From the IMG/VR virus record IMGVR_UViG_3300028840_001431, positions 1-62,650 of that record: a DNA stretch of 62,650 nt. One strand, given 5' to 3'. The notes below the pieces were generated by a model. It was not told where the DNA came from, ran no database searches, and saw only the letters and a program-made list of their open reading frames with translations. Below, one piece after another: positions 7,999-41,094 of this stretch. Source of the DNA: a virus. The stretch's first letter is position 1. Each line of letters begins with the position of its first letter. The position numbers were made by a program, and so were the translations under genes.

Positions 7999-8005
7999 GA
8001 GAAAA

Positions 8006-8417: not shown

Positions 8418-8420
8418 GCC

Positions 8421-10373
8421 ATGGCCGATGATCCCAAATCCGGCCTTGAGCAATTCTTGGCCAAACGCATAGAGGATGCCGCTGAAGAGCGAAAGCGTTT
8501 CCTTGAGTTGAAGTGGAAGGCCAACCTCAATGCCGTCACCAATCAGGATTCCCGCGTGACTCGTTGGAAATCCAAGGAGGGTGATGAGGAGTGGCAATCG
8601 ACCACGTATATCGGATTGACCAAGGCCAAGGTTTGGACCCTTTACGCTATTATCTTGGATACGGCCCTTCAGCGGGGTCAGGTTCCATTCATCCTTAAGC
8701 CGAGCCCTCATGAGAGGGAGCCATTGGGTGAGGCTGAGATCTCATCCCGTGACAAGAACATGAACAAAATGGGGGATAAGATCAGGGAACAATTCGCAGA
8801 TCGCCACTCTGATCGGGAATATATGAACAAGTTCCTATCCCTTGCCTATTACGGCATGACCTTTAGCAAATTCAACGTTGCCCCCGTTACCCGCCGAGGT
8901 TTTTCCCCTACCAATTACGCCGAACCCGGATTGCCCGAGGCTGAGGCTCAGGAATTCACACGTCATGAATATTACGAATATGAGGAACAGGTCCCCGGCT
9001 TTGAGTATCGCTCAGTTTGGGATATATGGTGGGATTTTGAGGCCGATAAATTTGAAGAGGGATGGGGTGTCATCGAAAGAGAGATGCTTTCCCTTTTTGA
9101 GTTGAATGCCAAGAAGGGAACGGTTGGGTATCTCGATGATCGCGTTGACGTTGTAATCAAAGAGCGTAAAGATAACAAGCTTTCAGATGAGGATTCTTTG
9201 AGGCCGGGATTAAGACACATCAAGACCCGGACCAAGGATATTGATGCTCGGGAGTATTGGGGCCGAGCCCCCGTTCAATTGGTTGAGGACTTTGAGAAAC
9301 ACGATATCGGGAAGAAGGGTGGGGGTGAATCTCAGATATCCTTAGAGGAATGGAACGAATCGGACGAAACCGGGGATGAGGTTGAGATCATTGCAACGAT
9401 GATCAACGGGAAATGTGTCCGATTCCTGAGAAGCCCTGACGGGTATCGACCTTATAAGAAATGTGTCCTTGAGAGTGAACTCGATTCGACAACAGGGACC
9501 GGGGTTGCTGATAACCTTGAGGACGTTCAGTATTCCTTGAATGGGATGGTTAGGGCCTTTGAGGATAACAAGAAACTTTCAGCCAACGTAATAACAGCCG
9601 TCAAGAAACGTTACTTTGCAAACCCAAAGCAGGGTGAGAAACTCCATCCGGGGATGCAAGTCGATATCTCCGATGAGTGTCCCGATGTACGTCACGCCAT
9701 CTTGCCTATCGTCATTCCCGATGTCGGTGAAACGCTGATCTCCGGGATTGAACGAATGGAACGATGGGGTGACACCGTTTCTCTCCTTCCGAACATCCTT
9801 CAAGGTTTCGTATTGCCCAAGCATACCCCGGACACGGCTTTTGAGATGAATCAACTCCAAGAGAATGCCGGGAAATATGTGGGTCAATGCATGAGGAACA
9901 TTGATGAGATGCTCATTGAGCCCGAGGTATGGGATATCTATGTTTACAACATGAGAGATCCCAACCGTGACGAGGAAGGAAACGTTCTCGACCAAACCCT
10001 AGAAGAGGCCAAGGGAAACTATGTGCCTCATGCCCAAGGATTCACGGGCTTTCAGAATAAGGTGATCCGAGGTCAGAAGATCAAGGAGATCCTTGCAATG
10101 GTGCTATCAGCCGAGCAATTGGCCATCGAAGCCAAGGTTAGGCCGCACCTTGAGGTAATCTATCGGTCTTATGACGCTGATCCTGATGAGTTCCTGAAAT
10201 CGCCTGAGGAGAAAGAGCAAGAGCTTCAGGATGAGGCGACACGTCAGGAAAAGGCAAAACAAGAGGCCATCCTTGCCCTGAAGGCCGAGAAAGACCTTGA
10301 AGACGCTAACGCTGAGAAGGACTTTCAACGGGACGTAATCAAGGAAGGAGTGAAGGCGGCGGTTAATCAATGA
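8421..10373 (+). CDS. Portal protein
   Basis: 650 residues. Size, position (before scaffold and capsid) and composition match portal proteins of podovirus-like phages with N4-type capsids. Residues 60-90 (STTYIGLTKAKVWTLYAIILD) hold an early conserved helix, and a clip/stem-like middle contains the repeated D-I-W-W-D aromatic cluster near residue 200. A long charged coiled C-terminus (QELQDEATRQEKAKQEAILALKAEKD) is typical of portal barrels or tails. As a dodecamer it would form the DNA entry vertex, bind terminase and anchor the neck. No signal peptide. The stop overlaps the next start as ATGA. Confidence 0.75.
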   Translation: MADDPKSGLEQFLAKRIEDAAEERKRFLELKWKANLNAVTNQDSRVTRWKSKEGDEEWQSTTYIGLTKAKVWTLYAIILDTALQRGQVPFILKPSPHEREPLGEAEISSRDKNMNKMGDKIREQFADRHSDREYMNKFLSLAYYGMTFSKFNVAPVTRRGFSPTNYAEPGLPEAEAQEFTRHEYYEYEEQVPGFEYRSVWDIWWDFEADKFEEGWGVIEREMLSLFELNAKKGTVGYLDDRVDVVIKERKDNKLSDEDSLRPGLRHIKTRTKDIDAREYWGRAPVQLVEDFEKHDIGKKGGGESQISLEEWNESDETGDEVEIIATMINGKCVRFLRSPDGYRPYKKCVLESELDSTTGTGVADNLEDVQYSLNGMVRAFEDNKKLSANVITAVKKRYFANPKQGEKLHPGMQVDISDECPDVRHAILPIVIPDVGETLISGIERMERWGDTVSLLPNILQGFVLPKHTPDTAFEMNQLQENAGKYVGQCMRNIDEMLIEPEVWDIYVYNMRDPNRDEEGNVLDQTLEEAKGNYVPHAQGFTGFQNKVIRGQKIKEILAMVLSAEQLAIEAKVRPHLEVIYRSYDADPDEFLKSPEEKEQELQDEATRQEKAKQEAILALKAEKDLEDANAEKDFQRDVIKEGVKAAVNQ

Positions 10374-11279: not shown

Positions 11280-11876
11280 ATGAACAAACGATTTGCAATT
11301 GTAGCGTTGACGGCATTGATGGTTTTCGTTTTTGCGGGAATGGCCTTGGCTGACCCTTTCACCGGAAGGCCTCACACTTGGAGAGGTGAGCAGATTTACC
11401 GGGGAGAGATGAAGTTCAGGGGTGATAACGCGGATCTCACTTTGGAATCCGGGTCCGAGATTACCCTGACCACGGCTCCCCGATATACGACCACAACCCT
11501 TACTTGGACTGCTGGCACGGGATACACGGTTCCCTCGACCGTAAAAACCGGGGCCGTCTATCAATTCGATATCTCTTCGGCCACAAGTTCAAGTGCCGGG
11601 GGCGATAATGGCATCATGGATGTCGGCACGGCAGGGGTGACAATTCATATTCCCACCCCAACCGCAGTTAATCATGATACGATCTTCGGGCTTCAGAAGA
11701 TCGACTCCGGGACAACGGACGCTATTCTCTACTGTGCGGGCCTTCCGATCTTTTGGGCTTCGTCCGGTACAACCAATGTGAGCAAGGAAATGGATGCCCA
11801 AGGGGATATCGTTTGGTTGCAACTTAATTACAATGGTGCGGTTAGTGTCTTTGCGGTCAACGAGTATATGCATTAA
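11280..11876 (+). CDS. Sec-exported beta-rich protein inside the head module
   Basis: 198 residues. AAAGGGAGGAATAAG lies before the ATG. The N-terminus (MNKRFAIVALTALMVFVFAG) ends in an ALA-D cleavage site, a clear signal peptidase I substrate. The mature part is rich in T, S and G with alternating strands (TTTLTWTAGTGYTVPS, GVTIHIPTPTAVN), as in fibre, spike or decoration domains. Its place between portal and scaffold genes would normally predict a cytoplasmically assembled virion protein, so the signal peptide is unexpected. Alternatives are a secreted accessory factor or a displayed adhesin. Confidence 0.65.
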   Translation: MNKRFAIVALTALMVFVFAGMALADPFTGRPHTWRGEQIYRGEMKFRGDNADLTLESGSEITLTTAPRYTTTTLTWTAGTGYTVPSTVKTGAVYQFDISSATSSSAGGDNGIMDVGTAGVTIHIPTPTAVNHDTIFGLQKIDSGTTDAILYCAGLPIFWASSGTTNVSKEMDAQGDIVWLQLNYNGAVSVFAVNEYMH

Positions 11877-13242: not shown

Positions 13243-14265
13243 ATGGGAGAAACCATTAATACCTACGGGGACATTTCCCCGAGAACAGCGGCTTATGCGG
13301 CGGCTCGGTTGCTCATGCGGGGACAGCATGACATGATCACCGAGCGTTTTGGGCAATCCCGCCCGATTCCGAAACGTCACACGAAGAGCATCAAGTTTCG
13401 GAGATACGAGTCTCTCCCCCGTGCCACGGCCCCCTTGGCCGAAGGCATCCCGCCCAAAGGTCGGAAGCTCACCTATACCGATGTCACCGCGACACTTGAG
13501 CAGTACGGTGATTTCGTTGAGCTTACCGATGTCATCAAGGACACTCACGAAGACGATGTATTCAAGGAGTCGTTTGACCTCTGCGGGGAGCAAGCGGCTG
13601 AAACGGTTGAGGTTGTCCGTATTGCGGTAATGAAAGCGGGAACCAACGTCTTTTATGCCAACAATGCCGGATCTCGATCAGCTATTAATTCTCCGGGTGT
13701 CCGGGGTGACTTCCGAAGGATTTATCGTTCCTTCCGAAGGAACAAGGCCCGTCAGATATCCAAGATGGTCCGAGCTTCCGCGAAGATCTCCACCGAGCCC
13801 GTGAATGCGGCCTTCTTCGTATTGGGTCACACCGATTGTGATTCCGATATCCGAGGACTTGAAGGGTTCGTTCCGGTCGAGCAGTATTCCGATTCGACCA
13901 AGGCCCTTCCCACCGAAATCGGGAAGATGGATCAGTTCCGTTTTTGCCTGACGGCCCTGTTTGAGCCTTGGGAAGCGGCGGGTACGGCTGGTCAAACCTA
14001 TCTGAGTGGTGGGGAGATTGTCACGTCCGACACGGCGGCTGATGTCTATCCGCTGATTGTCCTTGCAAAGAATGCCTATGGCATCGTTCCCTTGCAGGGT
14101 CAGAACGCCGTGAAACCCGCCGTGAGGAACCCCGATCAGCCTGCCGTGGGTGATGAGCTTGGGCAAAAGGGATTCGTTTCGTGGAAAATGTACCAAACAG
14201 CCGTAATCTTGAATCAATTGTGGATGGCCCGCCTTGAGGTGGCCGCTACAGCCGTCCCGAGTTAA
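13243..14265 (+). CDS. Major capsid protein, N4-gp56 family
   Basis: 340 residues. The N-terminus (TINTYGDISPRTAAYAAARLL), the SIKFRRYESLP segment (49-59), APLAEGIPPKGRKLTYTDVTATLEQYGDF and the AAETVEVVRIAVMKAGTNVFYAN segment are the recognisable core of the N4 gp56-type HK97-fold capsid proteins. It forms the icosahedral head in the cytoplasm and has no signal peptide. AAGGAGA precedes the ATG. Parts of its N-terminal 82 residues and its final 21 residues recur in the Tat-signal protein at 3854. Confidence 0.9.
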   Translation: MGETINTYGDISPRTAAYAAARLLMRGQHDMITERFGQSRPIPKRHTKSIKFRRYESLPRATAPLAEGIPPKGRKLTYTDVTATLEQYGDFVELTDVIKDTHEDDVFKESFDLCGEQAAETVEVVRIAVMKAGTNVFYANNAGSRSAINSPGVRGDFRRIYRSFRRNKARQISKMVRASAKISTEPVNAAFFVLGHTDCDSDIRGLEGFVPVEQYSDSTKALPTEIGKMDQFRFCLTALFEPWEAAGTAGQTYLSGGEIVTSDTAADVYPLIVLAKNAYGIVPLQGQNAVKPAVRNPDQPAVGDELGQKGFVSWKMYQTAVILNQLWMARLEVAATAVPS

Positions 14266-17094: not shown

Positions 17095-17805
17095 ATGAAA
17101 GCCCTCATCTCTTCGTTTTGTGTCCTCCTTATCATGCTTGGGGGCCTCGATCTTGCCTTCGGCGGCTCCCAAGCCACCTCCTCTTTAACAGCCGCGACAA
17201 TTGAAACCCGAGCAAGACGTGACCTCGATGAGGATACGGCCCAATATTGGAATCAGGATGACATGATCCAATGGATTGATGAGGCCGTTAGGGAGATCGT
17301 TTATACCACCAAATGTCTTGAATCCGGGACCTCTCTTATCGTTATCAAAGATAGCGTTTTCACTTATGATATTACCGGGAATTGGCTAACCGTTGAGACT
17401 GTCACTTATGATAGCGGGGTTACTGATGACCGGGATTATCTCTTCACCCTCAAAAGAATCAATCTGAGATCCCTCGGGCATAGCAAGGAAACGGGAAACC
17501 CGAAATACTTTGCTGTTTGGAATGATGATCTCATCATTGAGCCCGTCCCCGGAGCAGATCAATCAGGAACGACTCTCTATCTTTATCGAACCGATCTTCC
17601 TTCGGGCGTAACCCTCATCACAAGCCCAATCGAAACGCCCACCTATTTTGACACAGCAATCCTTGATTATGTGAAGGCCAAGGCCCTTTATAAGGATAGC
17701 AAGGAAGTCCGGGGTGACTACCATATGTCACGGTTCAAAAGCCGGATTGCTTCATGGATGATTCATATGTTGCCGGGAGGGTTGTCCCTGACCGAAGAGG
17801 ATTAA
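17095..17805 (+). CDS. Head-tail adaptor-like protein with an N-terminal Sec signal
   Basis: 236 residues. TTAGGAG precedes the ATG. Residues 1-23 (MKALISSFCVLLIMLGGLDL, then AFG) look like a signal peptide with cleavage near AFG-G. The mature part (TIETRARRDLDEDTAQYWN, DDMIQWIDEAVREIVYTTKC, FDTAILDYVKAKALYKDS) matches phage gp6-type adaptor proteins, which normally bind the portal in the cytoplasm. A signal peptide on such a protein is very unusual. Either the start region is a fusion, or the neck assembles on or across the inner membrane. Confidence 0.65.
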   Translation: MKALISSFCVLLIMLGGLDLAFGGSQATSSLTAATIETRARRDLDEDTAQYWNQDDMIQWIDEAVREIVYTTKCLESGTSLIVIKDSVFTYDITGNWLTVETVTYDSGVTDDRDYLFTLKRINLRSLGHSKETGNPKYFAVWNDDLIIEPVPGADQSGTTLYLYRTDLPSGVTLITSPIETPTYFDTAILDYVKAKALYKDSKEVRGDYHMSRFKSRIASWMIHMLPGGLSLTEED

Positions 17806-17806
17806 A

Positions 17807-20449
17807 ATGATACGCCTCAGATATGCCATTCTTGCAGTCCTAGCGGGATTCTTGGCTTTTGCTTATAACAATGTGTCATTAGGCCAAGATGACGATGAGC
17901 AGAAATGGGCAATAACTGACAAGACAAAGACCCCGAAAGAACGCCATCGTGCAACTTCATTCGCTCTTGCCGGGAAGCTTGACAGGACAAGCCCGTTTGT
18001 TGCTTTGGATGGGAGCAATATCAAGGAAGCCGTCAATATGCGGCGACCCGCCCCCGGCTTGCCCGTTGGTTGGAAGGCTCGGGGAGGATGCACTCCTTAT
18101 AATACCACCGCAATAGCATCAGCCGAAGTTAAGGGCCTTGCTCAGCTAATCGTTACCGAAACAGGCGTTGAGAAGTTTTACGCTCAATGCAATGATGACT
18201 TTTATGTTTCCTCAGGCACTCCCCCTGATACCGTTACCACTTTCGGGACAAAGCTTCTTGACCTTGCCTCGGATGCGGGGCCAATGCATTGGGGAAAGAT
18301 TGACGATGAGATCACTTGTGCCGCCTCAGGCCAAACCCCTTGGGCTACCTCGGGGGGCTCAACCTACCCTGACTCCTTCCTGACTCAGCATACCACCGGA
18401 ACCACGGCTTACAATGATGGAAGCATGTTGGTTGCCGATGAATTGGACACCACTTCAATCGGTATGCCTAACCATTCAGGAACCTCGGAATATGCCTATC
18501 TAGGGTTTCACAGAAGGCTTGACGGGGCCGAGCTTCAGTTAATCGCCGGAACCACCAACATAATGGCCGCTAAGACGGGTGTTTCAGCCTATACGTCTTC
18601 AGGGTGGACCTCATGCACGAACATCGTTGACGGTACGGCTGATGGCTCAGGCGTAACGACTCTCTATGAATCCGGCTACATTGCATGGACAAACCCCGCA
18701 AACATGATCCCATATGTTTTGCCGGGGACGAAGAACCATCTCTTTTGGTATCGATTCCGCGTAACCGCCGATGTGACCGACAATGTTCAGGTCAAGAGGA
18801 TCTTGGTTGCCGATATCTGCGAAGAGGTTACTCACTTATGGTCAGGACTCTATGAGATCGTTCTTGGAGCCCTAGAATCTCATACGACCGGATTTTACGA
18901 TTGGACCCCTGAGGTCACAGATGGAAGTGATGTCGAATACATGGATGCCGATATCACGAATTCTCAGGCCATCTATCTCGGGTTTGCTCAGCCTGTCATG
19001 GGCTTCTTCATGGAAATTACCTCTGACTCGGGGAACGTGGGGACAGCTACGGGATGGAGGGTCTATTATTGGGACGGGGATGAATCTGATTGGTCTGAGA
19101 TAACCGGAGTGACCAACGATAGCACGGGTGAGGGATACCCGCTTCAGCATACCGGGGTCATGCAATGGGACACCAACGGAATCAGGCCTGATCGAAGGCA
19201 ACTCGCGGGGCGGTTGACTCCGTTCTATTGGTACAAATGGGAGCCGATTGTAAGTCTTGCCTCAGAAACGATCAGCCTTTATGAGATCGGTGGGATAGTT
19301 GATCCGAATGGGGTCCGGGATATCAGCAAGTACGAAGGGGTGATGCACTACAATGGAAGGGCCATGTATTGGCCGGGGCAAGACTATAAGAACGGGATGG
19401 ATTACTCTCAAGAGTATGAACCCCAAATCATAAACGGCCCCAAAGCCGGAAGCACGGGCGGGATTTTCGGTCCCGGTCGAGTTCACCTAGCCCTTGAATA
19501 TTCCTCGTATGGAATCGTGTTTACAAAGGACCCCTATCGAACCTATGTGCTTCAGGGCAAGGTTCCGGGTGAATTTGATGAGCTTTGCATATCAACAAAG
19601 GTTGGGGCTATTGGGCCTCACGCGGCTTGCGTTGTCGAGGATGGGATTCAAGCCTTTGCCAAAACCCGAATTGTTCATGCTGTCTTTTTCGTGGCTCAGG
19701 ATGGTCTATATTTGACCGATGGGATGACAGTCACGAAGATCAGTCAACCGATATCGGATTATTGGGACACCGGGGCAACCCCTTACATCCAACCCGAGTA
19801 CGCCTATAAATGCTATGTTTGGTATAATTTTATTGACAAGACGGTTCACATCGGGGCTCCCGTTAATTTTGAAAACGATGATACGCCTCAGACGACTTGC
19901 AACGTTGAACTCATTTACAGTCCGATTGGGGAGGAATTCTATGACAGGTACGTGAGGAATAGTCCTGCCGCTTGCGGCCTCAGTTTAATCGGCAATGATG
20001 ACCAGAGGTTGACATACATTGGTGATTACTCAGGGACGGTACATCGGCTCGATACCGGAAAAAACGACAATAATAATGTCATCACCCACCATATCAAGAC
20101 CGCCGATTTTAACCCATTAGAAGGCAAGCTTGAAGATGCCTTAAATCATAAATTCAAACTTCGTGCGGTCAAGATCAAGGCGAAAGCTCAGACGGTGGGA
20201 GTAGCTGAAATATTGGTTTACCCGGACGATGCCGATTCGGGTGTGACCCCTCCCGGCGGGACTATTTCCTTAGTAAATTCAGGGTACAAGCTTGCTCAAG
20301 GTAGGACCTTGATGGGGAGAGATATTACATACCTGATGGAGACTAATTCCATAAGATTCAGAAGCGGAGTTTCGACCGCTGAACTAGATACTGTGATGGA
20401 ACTCTATGGTTATACAGTCGATTATTACGAGGTCAGGCCGACTCACTAG
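17807..20449 (+). CDS. Tail nozzle-like protein with an N-terminal Sec signal
   Basis: 880 residues. The first residues (MIRLRYAILAVLAGFLAFAY, then NNVSLG-Q) fit a signal peptide. The body resembles large podovirus nozzle or tubular proteins with a beta-propeller: IKEAVNMRRPAPGLPVGWKARGG-type start (residues 72-95), and a later segment with GIVFTKDPYRTYVLQG, FFVAQDGLYLTDGMTVTKIS. It would form the distal part of the short tail. Its end overlaps the next gene by 44 bases. The combination of nozzle and signal peptide repeats the pattern of the adaptor gene upstream. Confidence 0.6.
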   Translation: MIRLRYAILAVLAGFLAFAYNNVSLGQDDDEQKWAITDKTKTPKERHRATSFALAGKLDRTSPFVALDGSNIKEAVNMRRPAPGLPVGWKARGGCTPYNTTAIASAEVKGLAQLIVTETGVEKFYAQCNDDFYVSSGTPPDTVTTFGTKLLDLASDAGPMHWGKIDDEITCAASGQTPWATSGGSTYPDSFLTQHTTGTTAYNDGSMLVADELDTTSIGMPNHSGTSEYAYLGFHRRLDGAELQLIAGTTNIMAAKTGVSAYTSSGWTSCTNIVDGTADGSGVTTLYESGYIAWTNPANMIPYVLPGTKNHLFWYRFRVTADVTDNVQVKRILVADICEEVTHLWSGLYEIVLGALESHTTGFYDWTPEVTDGSDVEYMDADITNSQAIYLGFAQPVMGFFMEITSDSGNVGTATGWRVYYWDGDESDWSEITGVTNDSTGEGYPLQHTGVMQWDTNGIRPDRRQLAGRLTPFYWYKWEPIVSLASETISLYEIGGIVDPNGVRDISKYEGVMHYNGRAMYWPGQDYKNGMDYSQEYEPQIINGPKAGSTGGIFGPGRVHLALEYSSYGIVFTKDPYRTYVLQGKVPGEFDELCISTKVGAIGPHAACVVEDGIQAFAKTRIVHAVFFVAQDGLYLTDGMTVTKISQPISDYWDTGATPYIQPEYAYKCYVWYNFIDKTVHIGAPVNFENDDTPQTTCNVELIYSPIGEEFYDRYVRNSPAACGLSLIGNDDQRLTYIGDYSGTVHRLDTGKNDNNNVITHHIKTADFNPLEGKLEDALNHKFKLRAVKIKAKAQTVGVAEILVYPDDADSGVTPPGGTISLVNSGYKLAQGRTLMGRDITYLMETNSIRFRSGVSTAELDTVMELYGYTVDYYEVRPTH

Positions 20450-21884
20450 CATATGCCTTGTGCTCTTCTTCCTCATTGCGGGGGTGTCTGACGGGAAGAT
20501 CATTCGTCCGGGCTCGGGTGAGGAATATGAGACTTTCACCGAGAGGATCAGAAAGACCCACGAATCGGATATCAAGGCTAGGTTCCCGAAAGATGAAATT
20601 CGACCTGATACTGTGCATGGGGTCAAGGAGAGTCTTGATGCATTTAGGAAAGCATCGAAAGATAAAAAGCCTTGGGCTCATAACGACTTTAACGAGATGG
20701 AGGAAATTGCTTGGCCCCATTTCGATATCAGTTTCCCAAATTGGGACTATCCCGACATGCCTTGGTGGCCGGGGTTTGATCCATGGCCAACGGGGCCGTA
20801 TGGGCCTCAGCATCCTGACGATATCCTTGACGTTCCGGGTTGGTATTTACACGGTTGTTGGATTTCATGTTTTCCGGGGATTATCGAGTGCGTTGATGGA
20901 GAAGCCGAATGTGTTATCACGACTTCACAAATCATATGTGGGATTGATGTAGTCGGACAGGTTCAGGATTGGAGGTTAGAGGGGAACAACCTTATCATCG
21001 TTCCGGCCATCTCGGCGGTCGATAATAGCGTTATCGAAGTCGAGGTTTGTACCTGTCCCCTTGATTGGCAATTAAAAGGCGGTTGTTGTGATGCTCGGAT
21101 CATTATCAACTGTGAGGAAGAAGAGGAAGATATATGCCTAGGGGCCACTCCAACAATCGTTGCAGATGCCACGACCGAGGCGGCTTATGGTGATATTTGC
21201 TCAGGTGGAAACACGTCTGGAACCTTCAGCGTTCAGAGTGGAGGCCTCGCGGTTCCACCATATGAGTGGACTCTCACCTGTGCGGGGTCAAATTTCACTC
21301 TCGATGGTCAGGCTTGCCCCGCCACGGCTGAGACTAGTTCTGATGGGTCCTCGGTCACGGTTGCTTCATCAGGGGCATGTGGAGGGGCCACTTTAAGGGT
21401 CGAGGATGCTTGTGGTGAAACCGATACATATACGATCATGTGCTCAGATTCGGGGTCTTGGGTCACGATTTATAGCACGGCCCTTGGAGATCCTGAGTCA
21501 GACGCATGTAATATGCCGGGAGAATCAACTCATATCGTGGCGGGTCAAATGCGGCTTGATGCCGGATACCGAAGGCAATACCATAATTACATCACGGTTG
21601 GGGCCGGGGCTGTCCAATGCGTCGGATCAGGGTGCGGAAGCCCACCCCTCAATGATTGCCAGTATGATGGATCTCCGGGACGTTGTTGCGGTGGTGGGTG
21701 TCCCTCATGGGGTTGCTATGATTGCCTTTGCGGAAACGGGACCCTCGTAGGGTGTGCGGCCCTTACTTTCAGGATTTGTGATATGTGCGGTTGTGATGAT
21801 TGTTGGCATATAACGGGTGGGTATTATCAATGTGCCTGTAACTGCTCAGTTGACTTCGTTTATCAGGAATGGCAATGCCCATAA
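20406..21884 (+). CDS. Exported protein with 36 cysteines
   Basis: 492 residues. The N-terminus has R-S-G-R-L then TSICLVLFFLIAG, a signal peptide or anchor. I count 37 cysteines, 36 of them beyond the signal, clustered at residues 135-275 and in the last 110 (for example PGRCCGGGCPSWGCYDCLCG). The middle has immunoglobulin-like strands (VPPYEWTLTCAGSNFTL, SDGSSVTVASSGACGGATLRVED). This density implies disulfide bonds or metal clusters; disulfides would need the periplasm. It overlaps both neighbours, so it belongs to the tail operon. It could be a tail tip or adhesion protein. Confidence 0.6.
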   Translation: MVIQSIITRSGRLTSICLVLFFLIAGVSDGKIIRPGSGEEYETFTERIRKTHESDIKARFPKDEIRPDTVHGVKESLDAFRKASKDKKPWAHNDFNEMEEIAWPHFDISFPNWDYPDMPWWPGFDPWPTGPYGPQHPDDILDVPGWYLHGCWISCFPGIIECVDGEAECVITTSQIICGIDVVGQVQDWRLEGNNLIIVPAISAVDNSVIEVEVCTCPLDWQLKGGCCDARIIINCEEEEEDICLGATPTIVADATTEAAYGDICSGGNTSGTFSVQSGGLAVPPYEWTLTCAGSNFTLDGQACPATAETSSDGSSVTVASSGACGGATLRVEDACGETDTYTIMCSDSGSWVTIYSTALGDPESDACNMPGESTHIVAGQMRLDAGYRRQYHNYITVGAGAVQCVGSGCGSPPLNDCQYDGSPGRCCGGGCPSWGCYDCLCGNGTLVGCAALTFRICDMCGCDDCWHITGGYYQCACNCSVDFVYQEWQCP

Positions 21885-22213
21885 TCTTACTTTTGCTGAT
21901 ATTCCCAAGCTTTGCAAACGCGGCCCCGTTTGATATTGGGGAAGTTGTGAGGAGGGACAGGACCGGAAGGCTCCCCGAGTACAGGCAGATTACTGTAAAA
22001 GTCGAAAAACGCAATGATTGGAGAAAACGAAGATATGCCAAAATAATGGCCGATATCCAAGAGGAGAGGAGAAAGAAGGAATCAGAATGGGCATTGTGGA
22101 AGCTCGGGAACATATTGGACAAGATGAAGCCGTTCTTGATTTCCGTGGACTCAGATCTAAATCCTACCCTTGTGTTAAACCCAAAATATATGCAGTTCAG
22201 GGCCAAGGGCTGA
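21869..22213 (+). CDS. Small exported charged protein
   Basis: 114 residues, overlapping the previous gene by 16 bases. MAMPIILLLLIFPSFANA-A is a canonical signal peptide with an ANA-A cleavage site. The mature part is a highly charged helix (EKRNDWRKRRYAKIMADIQE, RRKKESEWALWKL). After its TGA the same frame stays open to the TGA ending at 22319. Confidence 0.6.
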   Translation: MAMPIILLLLIFPSFANAAPFDIGEVVRRDRTGRLPEYRQITVKVEKRNDWRKRRYAKIMADIQEERRKKESEWALWKLGNILDKMKPFLISVDSDLNPTLVLNPKYMQFRAKG

Positions 22214-22301
22214 GGGGACAAAAAGAAGCCGGAGTTCCCGGATGACCCTGACCAAATGACAGAGGAAGAACTTCAAGCATGGCTAGAAGGGGAGGATGAA
22301 G

Positions 22302-22925: not shown

Positions 22926-22937
22926 GGAGTACCGAAA

Positions 22938-24698: not shown

Positions 24699-27600
24699 AT
24701 GGCCTACTTTACAACGAAGTTGTCAGATATTGTGCCGGGAATCGATGACACCAACCCCACTAGGCACTTAGTCCAACCCGCTCAACAACCGAGTGCATCT
24801 CAGCAAATCGAGAGTTCCTTGATGAGTCGAAACGACCGGGAATATCTCGATCAGTTGCGGCGGGCTCATGTGCCTAAGGGTAGGCCCCACCTGATGGGAG
24901 CCGTAAAGAGTACCGCTCTTGAGGCTCTTGGAGGTTTGGGAGGCCTTTTGGAGATCCCCGGCGAAGTCATTTCTCCCCTAAAGCAAGCGGGTGAGAACGT
25001 CAGGAATTTCTATTCTCAGATTGCCGATGAGGACCCCGATGTTCAGGAATACACCAAATCAGTCATCGAAGGGCGGGAACCATGGGTTGGAGAATTCGCG
25101 GGCTCCCTTGGTCCAACGGGTATGGCCGCTCTTCTGCATACCGTTCCGCTTGCTGGTCGAGCATTGGCAACGGCTTATTTCTATAAGCTCAACAAAGAAG
25201 AGGCTGAACAACTTGCACTCGACAAGGGAGCAGATCCGCAAAGAGCCCTATGGACCGGAAGGGTTGCCGGGGCCATCAATTCAGCCTTGGATATATGGGG
25301 ATTAGATCGGATTTTTGCGGCCTCTCAACCCGCTAAGAATATTGGAAGATTCCTTCTCAATCTTGGGATGGCCGGAGTTTCCGAGGGTGCAACTGAGGGC
25401 CTTCAGGAAGTCATCTCCGATATGTCGTCCGAGTTTGCGGCAAAGCCCCCTGAGCAGGACTTTGGTGAGTTTATCTCCGGGATGGAGCAAAGGCTCCCAA
25501 CCTTCTATAATCGTTTCAAGGAAGCCGCCCTTATCGGTGGTCCCATGGGTGCTCTATTTGGTGGAGCCGCCGGGGGAGCCGCCGCTCTTCAGAGGCGGGG
25601 ACGTGCAAAAGAAGCCGAGAGGCAAAGAGTACAGACCGAGCAAGAGGCACAAGAACGGGCTCAGGAAGCCGCCCAAGACCAAAAGCGTACAAACATAGCC
25701 GATGCCGTCCAAATGGCCCTTGTGGCCGAACCGGGGGGTCCTAGAGACTTTATTTTGAAGGGGGCCTTGATTCCGGCTATGACCGAGCAAACGGGTCCCG
25801 CAACCCCGGCCCAACGTCGAGCCTTGCCGGAACCTCAAAGAGCCCTCCCTGAACCTCAGAGGATGCTCCCTCATTCCACTATCCCACCAATTGAAGCTGG
25901 TCCTTTCCCGCTAGTACCGACTGAACCGCGTAGGCCTACCGAGGCCCCCACAACGGTCTTGCCGATAGGTGAAGAGGCCGTTGAGGCGGGTCCCTACCCC
26001 ATAGTTCCTACCGAAGGACCAAGAACAGATATCGGAAGAGCGGGCCTTGCTCGGAGAGTTCAGCAAGTTGCCGGGATAGGAGAACCGACCGGGGAAGTCA
26101 TAGAGATGGCTCAACCCGCCGAGGAGGAAGCCTTTGAACCCGTCGAGCCCACGGTTGAGGTCGGTGAAGCCGCCGAGGTTCCCGAGCTTACCAAAGAAGA
26201 GGTTGATCTTAAAGAGGCCTTCAGAAAAGCCCAAGAGAAAGCCGCCGCCGCTGAGCCCAAGCCGGAGAGGGAGAGAACTCGATTTGATGACATTGCCGAT
26301 GAGCTTGGGATTACATATGACGGCCCCCATCAGGGCCTAGAGCAGTTCACCACCGATAGCGGATATACGTTCTCACTCCCGCCGGGGCAAGTAACCATTA
26401 CATCAGTTCGTAAGGCAATGCCGGAAGATGAAAGGCCCGATTTTGTTCCCGGCCCTGAGCGTGAGGGAGCCGAGCCGCTTGAATTTACCGAGCCGAAACT
26501 TCCCGCCGATGTTCACGGCATTGTCATGGCTGACCCCGTTGACCCTGATAGGCAAGTCTTTTACCGAAGGGAACAGGCCGGATTTCTTCCAGAGTATGAC
26601 ACAGACGATGCCGATGCCGCTGAGCTTCTTGGGAAAAGGATAGCTTTGAAACGTGGGGTTGGGCGACCTCACAAATATGGGAATCTTATCAGGATTCTTG
26701 AGAGGAAAGGCATTCCTTACCGATTGCTTGGAAAGGATGAAACCGAGGATTTCTCTGATAAGAGGATCTCAGGCATTGGGAGCATTGATTACATTCAGGA
26801 TGAATACGCGGTCAAATATCAGGGAATCAATGAAGATGGAACCCGCCGATGGACCTATGAGGGTCAGGTTGAGGAGATAGCCGGGAAAGAGTTTACAACA
26901 AAGGGACTTGATGAGGATGAGGTTGCCGCTGAAATAGGGAAGCTTGAAGATGAGTATATAGCCGAGCAGACCGAAGCAGAGGAAGCCCTCCCGCCTGAAG
27001 AGGAGGTTGAGGTTGAAGAAGAGCCGGAAGGAGAAACCCCGCCGAAAGAGCCTAAGCCCGAGCCAACGGCTGAGGCAAAACCCGACAAAGAAGCAACCTT
27101 AAAGATACTCAGAAGGCGTCAAGAGGATTGGAATAAACAAGCGTTGAAATATGAAGGGGGGAAAGGGATACCCGTAGGGGCCGAGGGGGTTCAATATCGT
27201 TGGGCCTCTGATGCAATGATCATCATGCAAAAGGCGGTTGAGGCAGGAAAGACGATTGATGAAGCCGCGACCGAAGCCAAAGCTACGGCCCGTGGGTGGA
27301 TAGAGAAACATAATGCAAGACGGCCCAAAGATATCAATTGGAAGAGATGGGAGGGGGCCGCTGATACCTATATTGACGATGCCGTTAGGGAAGTCAAGCG
27401 GTTGGAGCCGGAAGCAATCACCGAAGAGCCTGAGGAAGTCACCGAAGAGGCTCCCGAGGTTCGGGAGGTTGCCCCTGAGGATGTCGTCAATGATGCAATG
27501 AAGAGAGTTCAGGAAGCCGCCGAGAATGCCGGGGCCGATTACTCAAACACCCCCATGATCGAAAAGGCCAAGATTGCCGATGTTCTTTGGGCCAATACCA

Positions 27601-30600
27601 TATTGACCGAAATCGAGGATGCCGCCGGGAATGAATATTTCTCTGATGGGCATTGGGCAATCAAGAAAGACCAAAAGAAAGCATACACCCCGCTTCAGAA
27701 AAGAGCAGATAAGGTCAAGAGCATTCAGCCTTATAGGGGTGAGATGAAGGTCAAACTAGAAGATATCATTAGCACAGAGAACAACCTTCCGCTTACCTAT
27801 GTTGGAACTACCCAAGAGGAAAACGCTGATCCTCAGGCTTGGTATGTTGACGGGATGGGAAACCTCAGGGCTATCAATGAAAACATAGGGACCTTTTTCA
27901 AAAGCAGAATTGGGGCTTTGAACTTCCGGGGAGATCCGGCTAAGGATATCTCATTTAATATGTATGCAGGGGATGAGCTTGTTGGTGTGATTATGCCAAT
28001 GAGAGCCCCCTTCCCCGTGGAGGAGGTTCAGCTTCCTGAAGGGGCCGAGATCGAAGAGCCCGAAATAGAGAAGGGTGAAGCCGCCGAAGGGGAGAAGCCC
28101 AAGAAGAAGAAACGAAAAGGACGTTGGACCGATACCGGGAGAGAGATCCACGGGAAACGTGCTTCTAAGGATAAGAGTGAACGAATTGAAGCCATCAACG
28201 TTGAGCTAGACTCAAACATCGATGAGAAAGCCGACCCTGAGGCCTTCCTCAAGGCCATCAATAAACTCACCAACAAATCGAAGATCCTGAAGCTTGACCT
28301 CCCTGAGGGGGCGACTCCGGGGACTCTTAGGTTCCTCAAGACCTTCCGAAATAAGATCAACGGTTTCAACCGTTGGGCGGCTAAGGAGTACAAGAACTGG
28401 CAGGATTCAACCGACAAGGGGGCCATCCTAAGGCATCTTGAGGCCAATCCAGAATATCAGGTCAATGTCAAGAATCAGGCCTCTGAATACATAGCAACCC
28501 TTGAGCTTCTTGAGGAAGCCATCGAAGAGACTTCGACTGTCCAAGAGGCTCGGGATAAGCTTTGGGAATTATTCGTTGAAGATCCCGCGATTGACAAAAT
28601 GAGAAAGGTGTATCCGAGCAGATTCAAGTTTACCCCGTTCGGTGAGTCAATCGTTGGAATGTTTGCTCAGGCTTTTCCGGGGGCCGATCAATGGACCCGG
28701 AGTTCAAGGAACGCCTTCAAGTGGACTTTCGGTAAACATGCTGATTCCGAGATGGCCGATGAGGAGGGGGCTGATAGAAATCAGGCCTTTGAGCATCGAC
28801 CGGGAAGGCGTTTTAACTTCATGGATATCGAGGATGACCCAAATAAATACAGGAATGGCAAGGACGTTGACCCGAAGACTCTTGAAAAAGTCTTTGGGTT
28901 TACCGGGATTAAGTGGGGAAATTGGGTAAGCGGAAGAGAGCAACAACACGTTGCAAATCTGTTTTATGACGGCTTTCACGAACTAATGAAGGCCATCGGC
29001 GGGGCTCCCGCAAGGGCTATTTCGGTTCCCGCGACTGATCCGGCCTTGGCTATTGGCTTTGGAGGTTGGGGCCGTGGTGGAAGGACAGCCGCCCATTACC
29101 AACCATCAGATCACTTCATCCACCTTACCAAAACAAAGGGTGACGGTTCTGTTTCTCATGAATGGGCTCATTCTTGGGACAAAGGTTCCAAGATTGACAT
29201 GAGCAACAATAAAGACGAAAGCCTCAGGGATATTGATCCACTTAAAGATATCAAAATAGCCCTCAGGACAAAGTATAACTTTGAAGCCATCAGGGAAGAG
29301 GCCTATCAGCTTCTCAAGGGGTTACACCACGAAACAAGGCAATCAAGAAAGAATCGGGTTGACAAGGCAAAGGCATGGCTCAGGTCACATTGGAAGCAGA
29401 TATCAGAGGAAGAAACTCAATTCTATCGGGATGCAAAGAAGCTTGATGCCGGGAAAGACCCGTATTATCGGACAGAAGTTGAAATGTTTGCACGGGCCTT
29501 TGAGTCATGGATTGCTGATAAGATTGGTTCTGATGCACTATTCATCGTTGATCCTGAGTTTGTGAGCGGTAGCTATATCAAGGATCACTTCAATTGGGAC
29601 GTTGATGCTTACCCGAGTGGTGAGGAACGGGAAAGACTGAACTCACTCTTTGAGAATCTATTCCGAAATATTACATGGGACAAGAATGGGATTCCGACCG
29701 TTGGGCCTGATTTTGTTCCCCTCTTCATCAATACCCAACGAGAGGTTGAGGCCGAGCTTGAAAAGTTCCTTGAGAAGCTTGATGAAATCTATAATGCAAT
29801 TTATGGCGGCAAGCCTTCCAATGACGGGCTTTACTGGTATGCCTATCTCGACACCTCCCGAGCCCCCGGAATGCAACCCTCTGGAATGGTTGCCTATGAC
29901 GATAAATATAAAGTAGCCGAGCAGATTGAAGAGCATGAAGAACGGGGCGGCATTGGAGCCATAGGGTATTCTGGACCGCTGATAGCCGATGACGTTGTTG
30001 AGATGGGCCTTGTCCCGATCAATCACGACAAGAACGATGATACCCTTTATCTAGGGGGAGCAAATGGCCAAACTTCAGAGAATTGGACAGATGGCAATGG
30101 AGCATTGGGGGAAGTATCGTCCCAAGATGGTAAGCAGTTTGAAGAGAAGGGGACTATTGTTACCGATCCTGAAGGAAGTGGAAGAAGCTTGGGAGAGGGG
30201 GATGACGGACTTGGTATCAACGAAGGGGGTGAATCCTCGGATAGCGGAGGAACTGATGAATCGGGGGCTGATATTTCTGCCGGAGGAACCCGAGCCGATC
30301 CCGGAAATGGTCCGGGGGCTGATCCCGCTAGAATAAATGAAGATTATGCAATAGGTCCGAGGGATTATATTGATGCCGATCTCGATCAGGTTAGAACCTT
30401 CACCAATGCTATCTCAGCCATTAGGATTCTAAAGGAGGTTGAAGAGGGACGATATCCGGCAACTGAGGGGGAGCAAAGAATCCTCCAAGCCTTTCCGGGT
30501 TGGCAAGCTATCAAGGCCGAGCTTGATCGGTATTCGTATGGAGCCATTCAAAACCGTCATGACATGATCTCCGGGATGCTCAGCCGGAGTGAGATGAACT

Positions 30601-33600
30601 CGGCAAGGAAATTCAAGAACGATTCCCATGCAACCCCATTGCCTGTGATTGATGCCATATGGGAAACGCTCCAAAGGTTCGGCTTTACGAGTGGCCGAAT
30701 CCTTGACTTTGCTATGGGTAAGGGCTCGATTTTTGGGGCTATGCCTAAGTCCATGAGGAAAACTTCTGTCCTGACCGGAATTGAACCCGATCAGATCCAA
30801 AGGAGAATTGCCAAAAAGCTTTATCCTAATCAGTACATAACGGATACCAGATTTGAAGAAACTCCCTTAGCAAACAATTACTTCGATCTAGTTTTCACCG
30901 ATATGCCCCATACAGCCAATCGGTTGAGCAAGCCTGATCCCGAGCATAATCCTCTTGGGTGGGAGTCTGATCCTCATTGGCTCAATAAGGCAATCAATCA
31001 CACGCGGGAGGGAGGTCTAATTGTAGCCATTGCGGAAACGGAGTTGATGGATGCTCCTAACAATGCCGATGCCCGGAAGAATATCGGTGATAAGGTTGAC
31101 TTCCTTGGGGCTATTAGGCTTCCGAAACAGTTATATGGGGATATGAGCAAGGATGTCATCTTCCTTCGCAAGAAAGGCGGGGGAGGTGTCGAGATAAAGA
31201 AGAAGGCATGGGAAAAGGTGAACGCCGGGGCTCGGATTCCCGTCAATGAGTATTTCGTTGAAAATCCCCAAATGGTTCTAGGTCAACTTGAACTCGACAA
31301 TGACCCGATATCGTACAGAATAACGAAGTATGCCCTCAGCCAAGACAAAGCTGATAACGTTGAAAGGGAAATCAACGATCTTGCAACCACCGATCTTCCG
31401 ATAAACATCTATTTTGAGGAGATCCCCGGAACCGAGATAGATCTTCTCAAGACTATCCCTGAGCCTGACTTTGTAAAGGATGGGGCCTTTGTAATTGAAG
31501 GAAAGAAGCTTTATCAAAGCATTGGAGGGAAGCCCGTTGAGGTGAAGGATTCTCCCCGTATTCGTGGCATGGTCGGAATGAGGGGAACCATCAGGGGGTT
31601 GCTCAGGTCCTATGCCGCCGGGGAAACAAAAGCCAAAACGGAGAAATGGAGGAAAGCCCTCAATAAGCAGTATGATGAATTTGTCAAAAAGTTCGGCTTC
31701 GTGAATGCGGTTCCGAATGTCAAGGCATTCATCCAAGATCCTGATGCCCCTCTCCTTCTCACCCTTGAGCGGTGGGATCATGAGCGGCAAAAGTCTCTAG
31801 GTAAAACCGCAATCTTTGAGCCGGGATTCTTCAAGCCTGTTACCCCTCCAACCTCGGCTAAGAATTCATCGGAAGCCCTGAATCTCTCGTTAGCATGGAA
31901 GAGCCGAATTGACTTCCCGTGGATGACCCGTTTGAGCGGGGTTCCTCGGGATCAATTGATTAGCGAATTGAAGGGCAAGATCTATGATGATCCAGAGGTG
32001 GGGTGGGTAACGGCTGATGAATATCTGAGCGGCAATGTGAAGCATAAGTTGAGAGTTGCTCAGAAGATGGCCGAGGTCAACAAGAAGCAATATGGTCCGA
32101 ATGTCAGGGCCTTGAAGAAGGTCATCCCCGCCGATTTGCAATCCCATGAAATCAACGTAAGGCTCGGGGCGGCATGGGTTCCCCCTAAGGTTATTGGGGA
32201 GTTCATGAAAGACCTCACCTTTGAGTATAATGTCAAGGCCGAGTATAGCCCCGTTCTCGGGAAATGGCAGATCAAATTTACGGGAGCCAGCAAAGCCGCC
32301 GCTAAACGAAACAAAGATTCAGCGGTAAGAAGCACAGAGGCAACCTCTGAATGGGGGACCTCTGATGTCAATTTCTTCGATCTCCTAGGGTATGCCCTCA
32401 ATGGTGGGTTCCCCGATGTGAAGAGGGTTGCAGTCGATTCAAAGGGAATGCCTCACACAGATGAGAATGGCAGAAAGATCATGGTTCCTGACGTTGAGGC
32501 TACTGATGCCGCAAATTACAAGCTTGAACAGATCAAAGAAAGGTTCTCTCAATGGGTATGGGAGGATCAGGCTAGGCTTAGGAATCTGACGCGGATCTAC
32601 AATGAAAAGGTCAATGCCTATGTGAAGAGGGTTCACAAGGGGGATCACCTCGTATTTCCGGGCAAAGTCCCAAATGCAATCTTTGATTTTATGGATCACC
32701 AAAAGAATGCCGTTTGGAGATTCCTACAGCAAGGGAGTGTATATTTTGCTCATGAGGTTGGGACTGGGAAAACCTTCTCAATTATAGGTTCAGTAATGGA
32801 AGCCCGAAGGCTTGGGCGGGCGAAGAAACCCATTGTTGCCGTCCAAAATGCCACGTTCGATCAGTACAAAAGGGATTGGGCCACGGCATATCCTGCCGCA
32901 AATGTGCTATTTGCCAAGATCCCAAAGAAGGAAGGCCCCGAAAGGAGTGCCATCCTGAAGAAGATTTCATCAGGAGATTATGACGCAATTGTTGTCAATC
33001 ACCACTCCTTGAGTTTCCTTGAGGTGAGCCCAACCGCTCAGATTGAACAACTGAGGAAGGAGCAAGCCGAGCTTAATGAGTCATTGGGAATATTGAGCTT
33101 GCAGGGAGCCGGAGAGGAAACCATAAGGAAGATATCAGGTGCGGTTGCAAGGTTGGAGGATAGGATTGAATCTCTATCCGGGGCTCCAACCACCAATGAA
33201 GTCTATTTCGACAACATTGGGGCTGATATGATTGTTGTCGATGAGGCTCACAGCTTCAAAAACCTCGATATCAAAACAAGCTATGGGAATGTCAAGGGAA
33301 TCGACTCAGCGGGGGCTCCATGGTCAATGAATCTGTACCGGAAGATTCAGTATATCCGAAACAGGTACGGAAAGAATATCATCCTAGCCTCAGGAACTCC
33401 GCTAACCAATAGCGTGGGTGAGCTTTACACCATTGCAAGGTACGTTCAGCCCGATATGCTTGCCGCCCATCACCTCCAAGGCTTCGATGCATGGGCTAAC
33501 ACCTTTGGCTTGATCTCCAACGAATCGGAACTAACACCAACCGGGACGGGCTATGTGAATTCAACCCGATTTAAGAGCTTTGTCAACATTCCCGAGTTAG

Positions 33601-36600
33601 TGAACATTTTTCAGCAAAACGTTGACCTAATCAGAGTGACCGAGAGCAAGAAGGAAGCTCAGGAAAAGGATGAGTTTATTTGGATTCCTCGACCGAAAAT
33701 CAAGGGAGGCAAGCCTCAGACTATCATTGTTCCGCAAAGTGATCATGTTAAAGAGTTTCAGAGGGAGCTTGTCCATCGAGCCCTTGCCCTGAAGAATGAC
33801 CGTCAGGCCCAATGGGACGGCAAACAGGACGCCATGACTCGGATGATCAAGGAAGGTCGGACCATGGCCATTGATGCACGGCTTCATGATCCGAAGCTTT
33901 CCGATCAGCCTGACACAAAGCTGAATTATGCCGTGAAAGAGATCAAGCGTATTTACGACAAGAAACATAAGGCCCACGATTGGGATCAGGGCGGGAAGGA
34001 ATACACCGAGGATAAGGGAGTTGTTCTAGTCTTTCTCGATATCGGGACTCCGGGAGGGGCATTAGAAAAGAGAACGAAGTTTTCACCTTACGGGGATATG
34101 AAGAAGAAGCTAATCAAGGCGGGTATCCCTGAGAAGGAAATAGCCTTCATTCATGACGTTCCTGACAAAGAGGGACGAAGAAGGCTCATGGGACAGGTCA
34201 AGGAAGGCAAGATCAGGGTCCTGATGGGTAGCACCAACAAGATGGGAATCGGTGTCAACGTCCAAACTCGGGTTGCCGGGATTCTTCATGTTGACGTTGA
34301 TTGGAACTATGCAAACTATGAGCAGAGAAACGGGAGGGGCCTCAGGTACGGGAATAATATCGATGAGATAGAAATCATCAATATCGGGACAGCCGGGACG
34401 GTGGATGCCTTCATGTGGGAGGTGGTTGCCCGCAAAGCTCATGTTCTTGGTCAGGTCCTCTCAATGAATCCAAACCTCAGGGAAGTGGAGGATATCAGTC
34501 AGGATGCAAGCAATGCTTACGAATATGTGAGTCACCTTGTCGATGACAAGCTTGCCAAGAAAAAGGTTGAACTCGATAGAGAGGTGAGGATTCTCAGAAA
34601 TGCTCGATCTTCACATCAGGCCGGGACGAACAGGGCTCGATTCAGGGCCGCAACAATACCGGAAGAGATAGCGGCGAATGAAGCAAACGTTGAGGCCTTG
34701 AATGAGCAATTGGAAAAGCACAAGAATATCACCCATGTTCAGATAGGTGATGAGCCCTTCTCTCTCAAGAAGAAGGGACCGGAAATCACCAAGAGGATCA
34801 AGGAGAAATGGGACAAAACTAGCAAGGCAACAAAGGAGAAGCTTAAAAAAGATCCGACCCTGAAAGCTTCGGTTGCCTTGCTTGGTGGAGAGGTCAAGGA
34901 TACTCAGGGTGATGGCAAAAGTTTCGTGGGCAACGATATCAAGATTGTCATTCAATGGGGTCCTGTCACCAAGAAATGGCTCATGAGGTTGGACGGTGAG
35001 GGTGTGAGCAGTATAATGGATGACCTAGGTAAGAGCGTTTCCCGGTTGATATCCAGAATCAAGGCCCCCATCCAAAGCGAGATAGATTCCCTCAACGAGA
35101 ACACCCAAAAACTCAATGATGAGCTTCCTAAGATTGCGGCTAGGATTGATGCCCCCTTTGAGAAGGAGGAGGAGTTCAGGGTAAAAGACGCGGAGAGGCG
35201 GGACCTTGAAAAACAACTGCTCGACAAACAGAGGAAAATGGAGAGGGAGTTTGCTGAGCAACAAAAGAAGAAAGGCAAAGAGCCAACCCATCTAGCCGTT
35301 GATGAGGCCCCTTATACTTTCAGCAAGCGTCAGATGATTAGTGCGAAGAGGGTTGCAAAGCTGATCCCGAAATGGCTGAGATCAGCCGGATTACCCAAGG
35401 AAGTCATCGATAAGATCAACGTGAAATTACAGCCATTCGTTGATTTAACGGACCTCGATATCGAGCAAACCCTAACCTCTTACGGGGAAATGGGGGTTCC
35501 GGTCACAAACATCCTCGGGGCCACAACCTTTAATGAGTACAAAGCGATAATGCAACTCTCTCTTGCAATGCAGAATCAGGCAAAGCTTGAGGAGACTGTC
35601 ATCCATGAGGCATGGCACATTATCAAGGGGTGGTTGATGCCGAAGGCTGACATCGATGCCATTGGCAAACACTACCGGAACGAAGAGGAGGAGGCTAGGG
35701 CTTTTGCAAGGTTTGTTCTTAGATACCGAAACCGACTCAAAGGGGTTCCTTCACCGATACGCCGGATTTTCATGAAGATCAAGCGGGCTCTTCAGCTTAT
35801 TGGGAATGGGCTTAGGGGGAGAGGGTTCACAAGGCCTGAGGATTTCTTTGGAACGGCAATGGTGGGGGCCTACTCAAGGCCGCATTATGTGAGGGGCAGG
35901 ACGGCTGATTTCGGTGGGACTACCATAGCTTTGGCCGGGGAGCCTAATCCGGTTCCTTGGGCCTCACATCAACTGATTTATGCTGTCCGAAACAATTATG
36001 ACAAAATGCCCCGGAAGGTTCAGTCTCTCAAGAATTGGGTGAGGAAACAAGCAAAGCCCTCTGAAATAGAGTGGCTTGATGTCGATGCAATCATCGATGA
36101 AGTTCAGAAGGATGGGAAAGTTCAGCCAGAATCCTTGCTTATGGGGCTTGCTAGAAACCAAGTCCACCTTCAGGAAGTTCTCAAGACTAGCCCTCTTGAC
36201 GCTACGGAAGACCCTTGGAAGGGCGAAGATATCTATTATGATGAAGATGGGAACGTTGCTGGTCATCCTAAGGTGTATGAGCCTTGGTGGTTGGATTATT
36301 GGGCAAGGGACGTTGATGAGCTTAGGAAAGAGGTGGAATCAAACCCGAATCATGAGTTGCATTTCACGGCGGCTATAGATCCAGATATGTCTTGGGAAGA
36401 ATTCAAGGCTTTCAAGAGGGCCGCTGATCGACCGCCGATATTGAATACCCCTAATCGATATCAGGCAAACACCTCGATAGGGACGATTGATGCTAACCCC
36501 GTTGTCGAGGTAAAAGACGGGAAAGCCTATGTAAAAAAATATGAGTATTTCGTTGAGGGTTCCAAGGTTTTTGAATCACCTGATCCGAGATTCAAGGAAA

Positions 36601-40260: not shown

Positions 40261-41094
40261 ATGGGAAAACGAATCTTGATGCTTTTGGTGGTTTTTGCGT
40301 TTACCCTTTTGAACGGGGACGCATTTGCTAAGGTGAGAACCTATGAGATGTTTCTGAATACGGGAATCATCCAAGGGGAAGGAGAACCATTCAACGTTGA
40401 TGCCGGAACAACTGTGACAGGCGTAACCAATGTCATTGTTGGTGGTTCTGGCATGAATCGTCAAGCGGGCTCCAAAACCATTCCATGGGAAGATGACGCC
40501 GGAAAGGTTTGGGTGGTCGAGCTTGCCTCAGCCGTTGTGAGTGAACATGCTCAAGGCCAAGGGGGTGATAATTCAGGTACGACCTTCAGCCTTTGGGCTC
40601 TTGGTGCGATCAACGGGAACTTTGACGCGGCTCGGCGGCAATACCTGTTTTTTGAGCAGGACCTAGGAGCAACTTCCCCTTATGTTACATCTTGGGAGCC
40701 GATACCGGGATGTGATTATCAATTTCGGTTTGAATCCGTTGGAGTAACAGACTTTGATAGGGCAAAGTTTGTGCTCAAGACAGGATTCCCCGCAAATTTC
40801 AAGCTTAGCGGGGCCTTTGTTCTGGATGAGTCTCAATATGTAATCAATGCTAATTCGGGAGTTAGTACCCTGACCATACCTGATGGGGCGTGGAAGATGT
40901 TCATTGGAGTGAAGGGGAACGATGTAGCTTGGTCCCTTGATCCTGATGAAAATGTCATCACATCAAGCGGTATGGTTTTGAATGATGGAGATTATTTGAC
41001 TCTCGATGATTATAACCAAATTAACAACTTTTCATTCGCCTTAGAGGATGGCGGCTCGGGTGCTACCGTTTGGGCGGTTGCCTTGAGTAAGTAG
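40261..41094 (+). CDS. Sec-exported beta-rich protein, possible fibre or spike
   Basis: 277 residues. AAGAGGAGAG precedes the ATG. MGKRILMLLVVFAFTLLNGD then AFA-K is a clear signal peptide. The mature part alternates strands and turns (AGTTVTGVTNVIVGGSG, FEQDLGATSPYVTSWEPIPG, SGVSTLTIPDGAWKMFIGVKG) like phage fibre or spike domains. It lies after the ejected-protein block, where fibres are commonly encoded, and before a LamG-type protein with its own signal. Confidence 0.6.
   Translation: MGKRILMLLVVFAFTLLNGDAFAKVRTYEMFLNTGIIQGEGEPFNVDAGTTVTGVTNVIVGGSGMNRQAGSKTIPWEDDAGKVWVVELASAVVSEHAQGQGGDNSGTTFSLWALGAINGNFDAARRQYLFFEQDLGATSPYVTSWEPIPGCDYQFRFESVGVTDFDRAKFVLKTGFPANFKLSGAFVLDESQYVINANSGVSTLTIPDGAWKMFIGVKGNDVAWSLDPDENVITSSGMVLNDGDYLTLDDYNQINNFSFALEDGGSGATVWAVALSK

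Follow-up and report, generated by a model that had tools for sequence, protein, structure and literature searches.

The window analyzed here (IMG/VR virus record IMGVR_UViG_3300028840_001431; 62,650 bp) carries a 144-bp terminal direct repeat (1-144 and 62507-62650) and is therefore probably a complete genome; its TerL gene runs off the window end, that is, across both termini, and no tRNA was found in the window. Its predicted adaptor, portal, and capsid mark the phage as an SU10/N4-type podovirus. We were particularly interested in a part of its tail operon on the + strand where the gene for the portal adaptor (17095..17805) is followed by that for a nozzle-like (stabilization/tip attachment) protein of 880 aa (17807..20449) and then by that for an extremely cysteine-rich protein of 492 aa (20406..21884), the first 44 bp of which lie within the nozzle gene. 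An initial annotation had taken the latter for an exported, disulfide-bonded tail protein.

The cysteine-rich protein and its homologues

The cysteine-rich gene is a single open frame from ATG to stop. The approximate count of 37 cysteines given by the initial annotation proved exact, with one (C17) in a hydrophobic N-terminal segment and 36 downstream of the signal peptide; the protein contains two CC, five CxC, and three CxxC steps. Cysteine thus makes up 7.5% of the protein versus 1.08% (116/10,705) in the other open reading frames (ORFs) of the window, counting those of at least 150 aa without the cysteine-rich ORF and a 5182-aa ORF; at this background rate, the binomial chance of at least 36 cysteines in 462 residues is about 1e-19.

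These cysteines are unevenly distributed, all those after the signal lying within residues 151-491. The predicted signal peptide of ~30 aa (20406..20495) contains charged residues, a core of hydrophobic ones, and a plausible if imperfect cleavage site, with MVIQSIITRSGRLTSICLVLFFLIAGVSDG before the cut and KIIRPG after it, in agreement with the signal-like segment noted earlier. It is followed by a cysteine-free N-terminal region of the mature protein (20496..20855; no cysteine in residues 31-149) which carries a RKAS.DK ... ME...WP motif and is a candidate anchor to the nozzle. Next come a first cysteine-rich stretch (20856..21131; 10 cysteines in residues 150-242), an immunoglobulin (Ig)-like beta-sandwich (21132..21455; 7 cysteines in residues 243-350), and a C-terminal cysteine-rich part (21456..21881; 19 cysteines in residues 351-492), which we propose to be the variable, host-binding part by analogy with the C-terminal swap between L031 and L107 described below. 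Structure prediction with AlphaFold2 on a four-row alignment, an approach the initial annotation had pointed to, did reveal the beta-sandwich, with block means of the predicted local distance difference test (pLDDT) of 40-76 in residues 241-350 and of 55-76 around residues 270-350. The remainder was poorly modelled, and the Ig-like part, also covered by the Foldseek comparison, is the only one modelled with some confidence; the models are too poor for domain claims outside it. No match to the protein was obtained in Pfam, PHROGs, or NCBIfam at E values up to 1, nor did phmmer find a relative of the C-terminal cysteine-rich part in any of the loci compared.

Homologues of the full protein are encoded on the contig behind loci L027 and L109 and in L031 and L107 (BLASTP E values with the window protein, 8e-16 for L027 and 1e-12 for L031), and a profile search of all loci compared revealed no others. 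Relatives were likewise missing from single-sequence scans of IMG/VR that used the cysteine-rich protein, nozzle, portal, or TerL as query, and from tblastn of phage records with the cysteine-rich protein and nozzle. The three homologues contain 25, 22, and 19 cysteines, and each has a signal peptide and lies in a tail operon. Shared with the window protein are the signal peptide, the RKAS.DK ... ME...WP motif, the Ig-like stretch with two conserved cysteines, and a cysteine at or adjacent to the C-terminal end; moreover, in both the window and L027, the gene is followed by one for a small signal-bearing protein (21869..22213, + strand, in the window). Cysteine conservation, the lack of which the initial annotation would have held against its proposal, is partial: some of the cysteines align, with eight columns invariant in the four-row alignment, of which the C-terminal ones rest on doubtful alignment.

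Exchange of sequences after the nozzle gene

Across 9,479 alignment columns, the phages L031 and L107 share 99.1% identity. Residues 1-225 of their cysteine-rich proteins are identical and the sequences remain similar to about residue 311, beyond which they are unrelated; the gene that follows again shows 93% identity (BLASTN, 10221-10400). In 150-nt bins, 62/68 were at least 97% identical, the other six all lying from position 9601 on, in or after the cysteine-rich gene, and the last two of the low-identity bins being an artefact of global alignment. A diversity-generating retroelement was considered as the source of this variation and rejected, as indels are present and the substitutions are not adenine-specific. 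A constant N-terminus joined to a C-terminus that varies between near-identical phages is the pattern of a receptor-binding tip.

Tail-fibre families are matched by the gene that comes behind the nozzle in L003 and L006, two relatives of the plain type, and in L108 two cysteine-free, signal-bearing proteins are encoded there. Together with the C-terminal swap, these observations indicate that the proteins encoded behind the nozzle are exchangeable, which would be as expected for a role in host recognition. L031 additionally carries an O-antigen ligase gene (7307-8518; Wzy_C, E value of 5.4e-19) between the nozzle and cysteine-rich genes; the same gene is found in L032 and, in identical form, in L107. 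It perhaps alters the host receptor and suggests a lipopolysaccharide-bearing host for L031 and L107.

The ligase gene also illustrates that non-virion genes enter this place, raising the possibility that the cysteine-rich protein, while exported and disulfide bonded, is no part of the virion and instead acts as a secreted or surface lectin or as an exclusion or host-modifying factor. Its lack of resemblance to any known tail protein would agree with such a role. We nevertheless consider this unlikely, because the gene start lies within the nozzle gene, signal-bearing and ejection-type genes come next, tail-fibre genes occupy the same place in relatives, and a C-terminus that is swapped while the N-terminus stays the same is what a tail tip would show.

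Predicted signal peptides on the adaptor and nozzle

The window adaptor passes the gathering score of PF24175 (SU10_adaptor; E value of 4.3e-15, 57.1 bits versus a cut-off of 27, residues 32-219), and the family profile matches PDB entry 8jov (E value of 1.7e-13). Ahead of this domain it has 29 extra residues including a 23-residue signal peptide, unlike all 56 plain adaptors compared, which have at most one extra residue before the domain; that the domain begins at the N-terminus without a signal is a trait of these 56 and not part of the Pfam definition. In the three of eight records that matched PF24175, the profile aligned from position 1-2, at or near the protein start, and in the annotated adaptor genes of Rollin and vB_Pun_Y3 the match begins at the annotated first base. 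Among all the loci compared, 65 have an adaptor by our profile; a signal peptide was present in nine of them, with 27-38 residues preceding the domain, and in none of the other 56.

These nine loci represent seven distinct capsid lineages, which form one clade (86/97) in a capsid tree of 60 representatives (7 with signal-bearing adaptors, 26 with plain adaptors, and 27 without an adaptor match). The clade was opened by a capsid alignment, to which the adaptor alignment added L106, L107, L108, and L110 and the nozzle alignment L112; L031, L032, and L107 are near-copies of one another. The scan with the seven-capsid alignment drew on the best 80 of 366 loci, among which capsid identity to the window reaches 71%. 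A scan of genome contigs returned Aeromonas prophages only.

Signals on the nozzle follow a similar pattern, being called in 6/53 nozzles by our rule and present also in that of L029, which the rule missed and which had no hidden Markov model match. In L038 and L039, whose nozzle the rule likewise missed, an in-frame signal-like stretch (about 13859-13915 in L038) lacks an ATG, GTG, or TTG start. The additions to adaptor and nozzle span 23-40 residues, in proteins whose domains begin at the start codon in other phages. The window protein, a putative nozzle, aligns with its counterparts in L018, L003, L020, and L038 at 15-21% identity, though the family profile was built with these and the match is therefore not independent. 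Regarding its cysteines, C698 and C723 are both present in three of the four readable signal-bearing nozzles and both missing in the fourth; C128 and C338 likewise come and go together, and none of four comparison nozzles has both members of either pair. We take this as a hint and no more.

To call signal peptides, we used a rule devised for this analysis together with inspection by eye. The hallmarks of Sec signals with type I cleavage, namely a positively charged n-region, a hydrophobic core, and small -3 and -1 residues, are seen in adaptor, nozzle, and others, and less strongly in the cysteine-rich proteins. False positives of the rule include an ORF at window position 14294 (cut at residue 60), and among the 34/303 ORFs called in 13 comparison loci there are true membrane proteins; our claims therefore rest on gene-by-gene comparison of orthologues. 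On that basis, the signals that the initial annotation had seen on neighbouring proteins are real sequence features of adaptor and nozzle, common to one clade.

Fibre-like genes, too, are affected. Between portal and scaffold, the window encodes a signal-bearing protein (11280..11876, + strand), fibre-like by eye and without a family match, with counterparts in L027, L106, L108, L110, and L030. Fibre-like genes at this place have signals in the clade and also in L048 (7125-8045) and L067 (6404-6970), despite the adaptors of these two lacking one, which suggests that signals were added stepwise and makes L048 and L067 a possible intermediate stage.

If the signals merely tethered tail proteins at the inner membrane, or led to partial export, assembly could stay cytoplasmic; the adaptor has to reach a portal that is inside the cell, a topological difficulty that dual targeting would remove. 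The signals themselves argue otherwise. Those of the seven adaptors end in AFG, AWA, ARG, VFS, SYA, GWA, and LWA, followed by Gly, and those of four nozzles in SLG, AYA, or SYA before Gln (three nozzles) and FSA before Pro (the fourth; the L029 nozzle was left out of this comparison). Net charge over the 14 residues past the cleavage site is -3 to +1 in adaptors and nozzles, mostly zero or negative. With such conserved -3/-1 sites and so little positive charge behind them, the segments look cleavable, in a type-I-like manner, and not like anchors. In addition, no start codon common to the seven adaptors would give a signal-free form, and in two of them, L029 and L031, the first 70 codons contain no in-frame ATG, GTG, or TTG, so that re-initiation would not yield such a form there. 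Since many cysteines, moreover, make most sense in an oxidizing compartment, we regard tethering or partial export as improbable, slightly more so than a non-virion role.

The cysteines could also be ligands in a cytoplasmic zinc or iron-sulphur protein whose hydrophobic N-terminus arose by chance. The three CxxC steps and a C..C.C step common to L027 and L031 would suit such a protein, but the window protein lacks C..C.C at the aligned place, and every homologue has a signal. Searches of Pfam, PHROG, NCBIfam, and PDB gave neither a zinc or iron-sulphur family match nor a conserved metal-binding cysteine motif. With the model of the protein, Foldseek returned no match at E values up to 0.001, and the 50 matches listed include many beta-sandwich domains of extracellular proteins and none described as zinc-finger or iron-sulphur. 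A structural match to a metal protein, which the initial annotation had named as fatal to its proposal, has thus failed to appear, and we hold this explanation to be very improbable. Equally remote is a start-codon artefact, with true starts internal and the hydrophobic segments untranslated, for although only a GGA lies upstream of the cysteine-rich start, the segment, cleavage site, and following Gly recur in seven distinct adaptors, two of which lack a later start within 70 codons, and good ribosome sites precede the window adaptor and nozzle.

A proposed tail built beyond the inner membrane

From these observations we consider it probable that the cysteine-rich protein is an exported, disulfide-stabilized host-recognition component of a tail built beyond the inner membrane; the exported, disulfide-rich tail protein of the initial annotation is supported as the best reading, with export and disulfides deduced from sequence. 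The host Sec pathway would carry the protein to the periplasm, signal peptidase would trim the signals from the tail proteins, and a Dsb-type system would oxidize the tip, its cysteines pairing into disulfides. The cysteine-free N-terminal part would anchor the protein to the nozzle, leaving the Ig-like and C-terminal cysteine-rich parts as an exchangeable tip that may recognize the host surface.

Signal peptides mark a predicted export set made up of the tip, the nozzle, the adaptor, and the fibre-like proteins, while the major capsid protein (13243..14265, + strand; phrog_1357, E value of 1.8e-61), the portal (8421..10373, + strand; phrog_332, E value of 1.6e-23, with a weak match to SU10_portal), the scaffold, and the ejected proteins have none. 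This division points to a tail made outside the inner membrane. We tentatively propose, as a scheme that is plausible but that we would stop short of calling probable, an assembly in two compartments: heads would be assembled and filled in the cytoplasm, and whole tails of adaptor, nozzle, fibres, and disulfide-locked tip would form in the periplasm and join the DNA-filled heads once the inner membrane is breached at lysis, tying completion of the virion to lysis. The signals would have been added stepwise within one clade, from fibres to nozzle to adaptor.

Several points weigh against these proposals. An exported adaptor must still bind a cytoplasmic portal, which is hard to reconcile with export; the simplest answer is that the two meet after the inner membrane opens at lysis. 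The argument for a tip rests on one phage pair, L031 and L107. Not every member of the clade has the gene, as L108 illustrates, and several contigs end before its place. In the window, its ribosome site is weak, the GGA being all there is upstream of the start. Contrary to the even-number conservation expected by the initial annotation, mature cysteine counts are 36, 23, 22, and 19, although disulfides can also form in a protein with an odd number of cysteines. No solved relative was found in the PDB, searches with the sequence giving weak matches only, mostly to antibodies (best E value of 0.18), and the family profile giving apokedarcidin at an E value of 0.68. Mean pLDDT was 37.9 for the cysteine-rich protein and 32.4 for the nozzle; the latter's own matches were limited to a weak 'amidase' PHROG, and its profile matched no phage chain in the PDB.

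Further along the + strand, a giant polyvalent protein of 5182 aa (24699..40247), probably ejected, has no signal peptide and matches LPD1, methyltransferase, and helicase. Neither this protein (chance ~3e-25) nor its two upstream neighbours (22296-24698) contain a single cysteine, and long proteins at the same place in L018, L019, L020, and L109/L111 are also cysteine-free in the portions read, as though cysteine were avoided in ejected proteins. The giant gene is followed by genes for two signal-bearing proteins (40261..41094 and 41108..42013, + strand), the second of which has a LamG-type lectin fold (Laminin_G_3, E value of 1.3e-13) and is likely a fibre. Elsewhere in the window, two adjacent ORFs (3854-4462 and 4528-5085) have twin-arginine-like starts, MNRRSFVK and MKITRRGFLK, the first with a weak match to TAT_signal of Pfam.

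Assembly of tailed phages is generally regarded as a wholly cytoplasmic process. Filamentous phages have Sec-exported coat proteins; they possess no head, package no DNA in the cytoplasm, and are extruded without lysis. The window phage is like them in that some of its putative virion proteins are predicted to be made with signal peptides. Ig-like domains, too, occur in phage tail proteins, whereas that of the window is cysteine rich, lies in a signal-bearing protein, and matches no family. The Aeromonas prophages, as well as the phages vB_Pun_Y3, Rollin, and StenR_269, share with the window a capsid (35-45% identical), the adaptor-nozzle order, and long cysteine-free proteins downstream; in contrast, their adaptors and nozzles lack signal peptides, and no relative of the cysteine-rich protein was found in them. 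The SU10-type podovirus tail, made up of portal, adaptor, nozzle, and fibres (PMC9509320), resembles that of the window, which has an adaptor of the PF24175 family, a portal and a capsid of SU10/N4 type, and a nozzle-like protein after the adaptor. The difference is that in the window the adaptor, the nozzle, and the fibre-like proteins have signal peptides, a term that does not occur in the accessible main text of that paper. In the accessible parts of the open-access literature, including PMC9509320, PMC12309495, PMC3556154, PMC8951688, PMC13097943, PMC6811365, and PMC9022590, we found no report of signal peptides on the adaptor or nozzle of a tailed phage.

Tail export would therefore appear to be a new feature on the known plan of an SU10/N4-type podovirus and, if shown, a new mode of assembly. 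Half of the virion would be made across a membrane by way of the ordinary host secretion route, a surprising build for a tailed virus that would change ideas on head-tail joining and the timing of lysis. It would also open disulfide chemistry to phage tails, with the cysteine-rich tip as an unusually robust and exchangeable binding protein.

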